A stretch of DNA of 64,000 nucleotides, taken from contig JIAB01000001.1 of the NCBI GenBank assembly GCA_000687975.1, positions 1,960,001 through 2,024,000 of the forward strand, in the 5' to 3' direction. Position 1 is the first letter of the stretch. Every line of letters starts with the position of its first letter. The notes beneath the pieces were generated by a model that was not told the DNA's origin, ran no database searches, and saw only the letters and a program-made list of their open reading frames with translations. Source of the stretch: Lachnospiraceae bacterium AC2031 (GTDB taxonomy: Bacteria; Bacillota; Clostridia; Lachnospirales; Lachnospiraceae). This document shows positions 47,290-48,136 of the stretch, one piece after another. The position numbers were made by a program, and so were the translations under genes.

Positions 47290-47312
47290 TCAAGCATGAA
47301 TAGAACAAGTCA

Positions 47313-47358
47313 AATGAGTCACTTTTTACGTTCGACGTAGAAGGTGACTTATTTTTTT
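47313..47358 (+). repeat. TGAGTCA/TGACTCA palindromic repeat (core B), last copy
   Basis: AATGAGTCACTTTTTACGTT on the left and TCGACGTAGAAGGTGACTTA on the right, with eight T after it, so it probably also terminates glf. One right-arm mismatch (TGACTTA). No further copy occurs to the window end. Confidence 0.88.
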
Positions 47359-47360
47359 GG

Positions 47361-47389
47361 TTGCTAGGAGCGGAGTGTTACGATAAAAT
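47361..47389 (+). promoter_or_regulatory. Promoter upstream of the c-di-GMP riboswitch
   Basis: TTGCTA and TAAAAT with a 17-bp spacer; the expected start site near 47396 lies just before the aptamer. Confidence 0.6.
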
Positions 47390-47404
47390 ATAAATGTATT
47401 TGAA

Positions 47405-47516
47405 TATTTGGCAAAACAGTGGAAACATTGTGACGCAAAGCTAGAGGGTCTGAAAGCTTATATATGTATTCTAGAAATACATAGTAATCCAAGTAAGTAT
47501 GACAGCCAGTTGCAAT
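47405..47516 (+). promoter_or_regulatory. Class I cyclic-di-GMP riboswitch (GEMM-I aptamer)
   Basis: The aptamer reads TTTGGCAAAA, then a stem ACAGTG/CATTGT closed by a GAAA tetraloop (47422), the diagnostic GACGCAAAGCTAGAGGGTCT, a variable stem ATGTATT/AATACAT, and GACAGCCAGTTGC. These are the conserved blocks, in order, of GEMM-I. It is followed after about 45 nt by an intrinsic terminator and then the gene at 47624. The strand CATTGTGACGC (47426-47436) is perfectly complementary over 11 nt to GCGTCACAATG (47565-47575), the terminator's 5' arm. That predicts antitermination without ligand and termination with c-di-GMP. Confidence 0.93.
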
Positions 47517-47562
47517 TCGATTAGCTAGACTTTATAAGATAGATGTTAGGTTGAATTATAGG

Positions 47563-47588
47563 AAGCGTCACAATGGGTGGCGCTTTTT
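47563..47588 (+). terminator. Riboswitch-controlled terminator
   Basis: AAGCGTCAC and GTGGCGCTT form a 9-bp stem with one G-T pair and a 5-nt loop, followed by TTT. Its 5' arm is sequestered in the alternative pairing with the aptamer. Confidence 0.85.
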
Positions 47589-47623
47589 GTTTTAAGATTT
47601 ACAGAAAAGGAGCATGATGTAAT

Positions 47624-48136
47624 ATGAAGATATTTTCAGTAGTGGGAGTTAGTAATAGTGGAAAAAATGGGATAATTAAACATTGCATGAAAACATTGAT
47701 ATCAATGAAGGAAACAGAAGTAGTATATTTTTCTTCAAATAGAAATAAGGATAGTTCGAAGACAGGGATTATTTCATTTATTGACAAAAGTATAGAGGAA
47801 GGTCTTGTAACTGATAGGAATATAAAGATATTGGTAATTTCTATAGCTAATAAAATTATAGGCTTGACAACATATGGTGATTCTTTCAAAGATATCGAAT
47901 TGGCTTTAATTAAAGCGCAGGAAAAAGCGGTAAATAAAACTGGAAATGAACTTGACTATTTTGTATGTGCAAGACATAAAAAAAATAATATCAGGAATGA
48001 GTTTCATGGGAAATGTAAAAAACTAGATGAGATTATGACAATAAAAAGTGTTAAACTAAAATCAGAATCAAAAGATAAGTGGAATGAAGAAAATAAAAAA
48101 CACGCTGAAGAATTATTAGAAAAAATGGGATACTAG
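47624..48136 (+). CDS. Unknown P-loop-like protein under c-di-GMP riboswitch control
   Basis: 170 residues of no family I recognise. It opens MKIFSVVGVSNSGKNGIIKH, close to a Walker A (GxxxxGK) but with Asn in place of Ser/Thr. VVYFSSNRN and KILVISIANKIIGLTTYGDS look like following strands of a small P-loop fold, the latter ending in a polar loop. The basic middle part (CARHKKNNIRN) and C-terminal helix complete it. Only gene before the convergent nucleotidyltransferase, so it is the sole target of the riboswitch. RBS AAAGGAG. Confidence 0.75.
   Translation: MKIFSVVGVSNSGKNGIIKHCMKTLISMKETEVVYFSSNRNKDSSKTGIISFIDKSIEEGLVTDRNIKILVISIANKIIGLTTYGDSFKDIELALIKAQEKAVNKTGNELDYFVCARHKKNNIRNEFHGKCKKLDEIMTIKSVKLKSESKDKWNEENKKHAEELLEKMGY

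Follow-up and report, generated by a model that had tools for sequence, protein, structure and literature searches.

The locus analysed here belongs to Lachnospiraceae bacterium AC2031 and lies within a 64,000-nt stretch of DNA, referred to below as the window. It comprises a c-di-GMP-I (GEMM-I) aptamer, a terminator hairpin and a predicted open reading frame (ORF), flanked by a UDP-galactopyranose mutase (glf-type) gene and a nucleotidyltransferase gene. The features are as follows:

47312..47354, + strand: intrinsic terminator 3' of the glf-type gene, which sets the riboswitch unit apart
47361..47389, + strand: weak sigma70-like promoter, TTGCTA-17-TAAAAT, whose start would be just 5' of the aptamer
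47400..47517, + strand: GEMM-I aptamer, RF01051 (covariance-model match)
47416..47421, + strand: 5' strand of the P1b hairpin, ACAGTG, followed by a GAAA loop at 47422-47425 (Rfam alignment)
47426..47436, + strand: switching strand CATTGTGACGC, composed of the P1b 3' strand CATTGT (47426-47431) and the core GACGC (47432-47436) (alignment)
47563..47585, + strand: terminator stem-loop core, AAGCGTCAC (47563-47571), AATGG and GTGGCGCTT (47577-47585) (fold)
47565..47575, + strand: antiterminator/terminator arm GCGTCACAATG, the exact reverse complement of 47426-47436
47584..47593, + strand: U-tract TTTTTGTTTT (sequence)
47624..48136, + strand: predicted regulated ORF, 170 aa
48210..48238, + strand: intrinsic terminator 3' of the ORF

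The aptamer, the leader terminator and the single ORF look like a short, monocistronic transcription unit of their own. The promoter-like site matches the consensus at 9/12 positions, and 11 such sites occur in the region where 7.3 (sd 2.6) are expected, which is not above chance. The ORF is of low GC content (about 0.28-0.31) and was found in 1/61 genomes of the genus, with no homologue in the other 60; the viral contigs, phages and plasmids searched held none either. Its 170-aa product matched no Pfam or NCBIfam family over the cut-off and no PHROG below an E-value of 0.8, and a single-sequence AlphaFold model of it was unusable (mean pLDDT 39.7). The motif GVSNSGKN near its N-terminus resembles a degenerate P-loop.

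The RF01051 covariance model matched positions 47400-47517 over its full length (model positions 1-87 of 87) and scored 57.2 bits (gathering score 35); the E-value was 1.5e-8 across the 64,000-nt window and 9.5e-11 for a 401-base stretch. Three pocket letters are present, namely G47411 (the G of GGCAAA), A47438 (the A after GACGC) and C47513 (near the 3' end), which presumably correspond to G20, A47 and C92 of Vc2. These Vc2 residues are given as pocket residues in the available part of PMC11218506; no pocket numbering was found in the available part of PMC6274999. The source genome contains eight GEMM-I aptamers and 35 GGDEF-domain matches, so the c-di-GMP signal is likely present. Three of its aptamers (L002, L005 and L007; G000:C1:3143848-3144809) are located inside 1 kb, each followed on the 3' side by a terminator-like hairpin, as judged by eye.

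The original prediction described an 11-bp alternative pairing between an aptamer strand and the 5' arm of a terminator. Both 11-base strands were found at the positions given, letter for letter, and their reverse complementarity is exact. In the Rfam aptamer structure, C47436 is paired with G47411 and G47435 with C47412. The description of 47565-47575 as the terminator 5' arm was accurate for the first seven bases (47565-47571), which form the stem; in the fold, AATG (47572-47575) belongs to the loop. The leader terminator has a stem of nine pairs, or 14 with an A/G-U extension, and sits between the aptamer and the start codon. U47568 forms a G.U pair with G47580 in the terminator, but an A-U pair with A47433 in the antiterminator. 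The hairpin at 47563-47585 was missing from the standard terminator scan and was found by folding and by a looser script. In double dinucleotide shuffles, the aptamer found an exact complement of at least 11 bases within the 80 bases that follow it in 56/20,000 cases; when the 11-mer was fixed and the downstream sequence shuffled, the match never exceeded eight in 20,000 shuffles. A scan of the aptamer against the next 300 bases (at least nine contiguous pairs, G.U allowed) returned the 11-pair match and one nine-pair match of the aptamer 3' end to a site within the ORF; it revealed no pairing of a terminator arm with the aptamer 3' end of the kind that the Cd1 riboswitch uses.

The pairing was then compared across the genus, where GEMM-I matches occur in 53/61 genomes. 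From among the matches listed, with the weakest left out, 137 leaders were taken (8 from the source genome, 29 further loci and 100 regions); two had too short a downstream sequence, leaving 135. The strand made up of P1b and GACGC found an exact 11-pair match within its own downstream 200 bases in 3/135 leaders, compared with 0/17,280 swaps of aptamer and leader. These three are the window's own leader, L001 and L021. At least ten exact own-locus pairs were present in 4/135 leaders and in 0.19% of swaps. With G.U pairs allowed, 11 pairs were reached by 4/135 leaders and 0.8% of swaps; this contrast is weak, and the argument therefore rests on exact pairs and covariation. Contiguous exact pairing was used in place of whole-duplex energy, which came out nearly alike for own and swapped terminators (median -12.9 versus -11.8). 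L001, another leader of the source genome, has the same design, TCTTGTGACGC with GCGTCACAAGA, in which two positions are altered on both sides. By eye, the ORF that it precedes looks secreted.

Covariation was examined through a search for the motif [GA]CGTC or GCGCC up to 160 bases downstream, which gave 32 hits in the genus leaders. Nineteen were kept by eye because a hairpin arm consists of the motif or overlaps with it; the 13 dropped were L011, a second L022 hit, L039, L068, L071, two of L074, L092, L105, L112, L113, L123 and L129. At the six P1b positions of the 19 loci, 75/114 pairs are Watson-Crick (85 with G.U). When P1b strands were shuffled among these loci, 57.5 were expected (sd 3.7) and 0/100,000 shuffles reached 75, the shuffles ignoring the relatedness of the leaders. 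Sliding the register by 1-3 bases left at most 48 Watson-Crick pairs. Since the 19 loci had been picked by eye, re-tests were made without hand selection: all 32 motif hits gave 95/192 pairs against 70.1 expected (0/50,000), the 20 exact GCGTC hits 67/120 against 51.3 (1/50,000), and the 21 hits obtained by a hairpin-arm rule 75/126 against 56.7 (0/50,000). Among single positions, the one adjacent to the core stands out, being reached by about 0.1% of shuffles; the others were reached by 3-37%.

The signal varies among the loci: nine to 11 antiterminator pairs are predicted in 11/19 loci (L001, L003, L019, L021, L022, L024, L055, L062, L063, L067 and L087), and just 5-8 in the remaining eight (L012, L020, L032, L042, L050, L052, L081 and L132). 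L062 is the least terminator-like of the 19 and fails the hairpin rule. The G.U pair of the window's terminator is common to 12/19 loci, as read by eye. In L022 and L055, the arm has a G opposite the P1b C, and the terminator 3' arm still has a T (G.U), indicating that the arm has kept pace with the aptamer at a cost to terminator stability. A tree of the 19 leaders left 11/16 inner branches open and was too weak to count independent compensations; within it, the L032/L063 pair (support 88/93, moderate) shows a two-sided change, A-T versus G-C at position 2.

This complementarity could be a by-product of ancestry, in which GCGTCAC arms arose by copying the complement of the conserved core, or by convergence on it, without any switching. 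The core GACGC is indeed conserved, and a GCGTC arm can therefore pair with almost every aptamer; many of these loci also have similar terminators (AAGCGTCAC...GTGGCGCTT), and the relatedness left in by the shuffles favours the same view. However, the excess of pairing is locus-specific and sits at the variable P1b positions: the core-adjacent pair is T-A in 14 of the 19 loci, C-G in four and an unpaired C.A in one. The next pair out is G-C in 15, G.U in three and A-T in one. A by-product of ancestry is thus very improbable. On the comparative sequence evidence, the pairing of the arm with the P1b strand is an evolved one, with what appear to be compensatory changes on both sides.

Modelled energies along transcription bear on the direction of the switch. 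For window transcripts ending at 47577-47580, the antiterminator fold was at -41.9 kcal/mol and the P1b fold at -35.7 to -36.4 kcal/mol, an advantage of 5.5-6.2 for the former. For transcripts ending at 47586-47598, the antiterminator was 1.3-2.9 kcal/mol worse (-43.9 to -49.0 versus -46.4 to -50.3 kcal/mol), and at 47604 the values were -50.6 and -50.8 kcal/mol. Beyond the end of the U-tract, the two folds were 0.2-1.4 kcal/mol apart, which is within model error. Across the 19 loci, energies at the first point spoke for the antiterminator in 14, against it in four (L012, L024, L050 and L052) and were tied in L081; 26 bases later, the aptamer hairpin was favoured in 17, all but L020 and L022. 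This modelled order, with the antiterminator ahead until the terminator 3' arm emerges, fits an OFF switch. Because the folds are nearly isoenergetic at full length, ligand-free readthrough would need an antiterminator that forms in a short window of transcription and then persists. The energy order thus suggests a kinetic mechanism in the ligand-free state, like that reported for Cd1.

In sum, we predict that the leader is a class I c-di-GMP riboswitch that uses strand exchange to switch transcription OFF, a reading to which we assign a probability of about 0.8; the direction of the switch and its response to c-di-GMP are inferred from the sequences and the folding model. Without c-di-GMP, GCGTC, the first part of the nascent arm to emerge, would pair with the exposed core GACGC. 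This contact may serve as a toehold in the ligand pocket, presumably in that order, from which the arm would invade and displace the P1b hairpin to form the 11-bp antiterminator. RNA polymerase would then clear the U-tract before the terminator 3' arm regains the arm, and the gene would be read. With c-di-GMP bound, GACGC and P1b would be locked in the aptamer and the toehold blocked; the arm would be left to 47577-47585, the terminator would form and the gene would be off. Two parts of the original prediction, mutually exclusive pairing and OFF logic, are supported by the genus-wide covariation of P1b with the arm and by the energy order. Its statement that the mechanism could be read directly from the sequence went too far, as both folds are nearly isoenergetic at full length.

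The early folding of P1b counts against an OFF switch, because the arm has to break into a hairpin that already exists. The leader may instead terminate constitutively: P1b and the terminator would fold locally and fast, the 11-bp pairing would seldom form in time, and c-di-GMP would change little. At full length, the terminator together with P1b at least equals the antiterminator in the window, and the minimum free energy (MFE) fold of the leader is the terminator fold (whole-leader MFE z-score -2.27). There is also a precedent in Bc1, a GEMM-I RNA of Bacillus thuringiensis with a poor response (available part of PMC11218506), which means that conservation of a GEMM-I RNA does not guarantee good regulation and also weighs against the OFF-switch reading. 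L052 (G022:C22:45970-46432) looks like a copy in which the terminator was kept and the core match lost: its arm GCGCCAC pairs fully with its own 3' arm, and GCGCC mismatches the aptamer core. It may be a former switch that now terminates constitutively. Three other loci, L012, L042 and L050, share its contig. Against constitutive termination in the window, changes in the arm track those in the variable P1b strand, which would be needless for a plain terminator, and in L022 and L055 this covariation comes at the terminator's expense. Constitutive termination is therefore an unlikely account of the window.

An ON switch, in which bound ligand prevents termination as in Bc2 or pilM, is the least probable alternative, with a very slight chance of being correct. 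GEMM-type ON switches do exist (available parts of PMC4933901 and PMC9262584). In the window, however, neither terminator arm is within the aptamer, which ends at 47517 while the terminator core spans 47563-47585, so there is no competition between the terminator and the ligand-bound aptamer. The only strong competitor of the terminator that was modelled requires the aptamer strand 47426-47436 to be free.

The predicted OFF switch was compared with published systems, described here from the available parts of the cited papers. Transcriptional OFF logic has been reported for class I c-di-GMP riboswitches in Clostridioides difficile (PMC11477304). In Cd1, from the flagellar operon of C. difficile, the aptamer is compatible with the terminator but has a competitor in the antiterminator, which is stable only transiently (PMC9262584). 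The Cd1 antiterminator takes the aptamer 3' end through G147-C87 and C148-G86, C87 being the C that pairs with the ligand; once nucleotide 148 was reached, the P3 signals were gone and the P2 signals were back to the unbound state, and in the full-length RNA, P2, P3 and the terminator stem were all formed (PMC9262584). The window's leader resembles Cd1 in having a GEMM-I aptamer with predicted transcriptional OFF logic and competition between antiterminator and aptamer. The strands differ: Cd1 captures the aptamer 3' end, whereas the window's arm would capture the 5' half (P1b and GACGC), starting at the partner of the pocket G. We infer that the P1b of the window is the equivalent of the P2 tetraloop hairpin of Cd1. 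The yxjA purine riboswitch of Bacillus subtilis is likewise an OFF switch, with a central helix that exists in the ligand-free state and rivals both aptamer and terminator, but it belongs to another aptamer class, and its competed helix is P1, whereas that of the window is an internal hairpin of the ligand core (PMC9756952). Bc2 and Bc1 of B. thuringiensis also combine c-di-GMP-I aptamers with intrinsic terminators (PMC4933901, PMC11218506); unlike the window's leader as predicted, Bc2 is an ON switch, and Bc1, which has two terminators, gave a poor response to c-di-GMP in the assays quoted there.

With strand-exchange riboswitches in general (PMC10907184, PMC2258182), the window shares a single switching sequence common to two exclusive folds. 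According to the review PMC10907184, the switching sequence is most commonly in the first helix. In the AdoCbl, SAM-II and preQ1 classes, the change of shape involves other parts of the aptamer (PMC2258182), so an internal switching site is not unheard of. No GEMM-I platform that switches via P1b and GACGC was found in the available parts of the literature examined; a study of covariation in whole riboswitches (PMC13273304) does not name c-di-GMP or GEMM. The OFF logic itself is ordinary, as Cd1 and yxjA illustrate; the choice of strand differs from the published examples checked.

Other platform designs may exist in the genus. A recognised terminator was present in 129/137 leaders, and 128 remained after one was removed for an N. 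In 37/128 leaders, the aptamer had an exact complement of at least seven bases in the 5' half of the terminator, compared with 6.2% of shuffles and 12.2% of swaps. Candidate internal strands paired with a terminator arm are CAAAGCA (L065, L068, L071 and L088), CATGACA (L034, L035 and L082) and ATGGTAG (L008, L085 and L121); GCCTAAA (L064) and GCAGCCA (L103 and L110) are further candidates. We tentatively propose, at a little under even odds, that the GEMM-I aptamer of the genus is a multi-socket switch, of which different copies use different internal strands and the arm copies the complement; in window-type copies, the pocket toehold would be gated by ligand occupancy, and the locus-specific P1b stem and one terminator G.U would tune the threshold. 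The strands used may be the P1b 3' strand with GACGC, GGCAAAGCA, the P2 5' strand GGGCCTAA, ATGGTAG, CATGACA and GGCAGCC. A toehold inside the ligand pocket would mean that ligand occupancy itself gates invasion. Separately, seven aptamers (L006, L028, L030, L074, L094, L111 and L133) have GCAAA/GACGC replaced by GTAAA/GACAC, GAAAA/GACTC or GCACA/GCCGC; they carry the hairpin ATCATGGAAACGTGAT, with two-sided linked changes beside the pocket.

A search of the class outside the genus covered 391 genomes, 166 of them with GEMM-I. Seventy loci were taken, as 30 plus 40 of the matches listed, chosen for spread; two could not be parsed, leaving 68 leaders. None of these 68 reached nine Watson-Crick pairs with the strand of P1b and GACGC, the longest run being eight in one leader (L324). 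With G.U allowed, 5/68 reached ten pairs, none with a GCGTC arm. In five outside loci (L306, L324, L329, L335 and L344), the terminator-like 5' arm appears by eye to be the aptamer's own 3' end, for example GGCTGCC...GGCAGCC in L329, an arrangement expected of an ON switch. Pattern searches of the family and the class (397 and 391 genomes) gave L001 as the sole hit in an aptamer context; two further hits in each were not aptamers by reading of their letters. The spacing limits of the pattern miss even the window's own copy, which makes absence in these searches weak, and the 68-leader sample is the better test. Looser patterns returned, among the matches listed, 119 stretches from the genome collection and 120 from viral contigs, mostly unrelated DNA, with six GEMM-like aptamers in the 239 loci. 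One of the six, L178, on a Thermoanaerobacterales contig, has the design in a terminator-like hairpin with 11 contiguous pairs including G.U, and L166 has ten pairs by script count (G.U allowed). On this sample, the design appears to be a trait of the genus, and at least one example (L178) comes from outside it, which either convergence or transfer could explain.

The findings suggest that, in a well-studied riboswitch class, the role of switching strand was moved from the aptamer 3' end to a hairpin that, for Cd1, has been treated as a preformed scaffold. Expression platforms are hard to align, yet they can be checked by own-versus-swapped pairing inside one genus. With 19 natural variants of what would be one switch, 11 of them with at least nine pairs, and with covarying stems, the genus may be well suited to measuring strand-exchange energy against ligand response.
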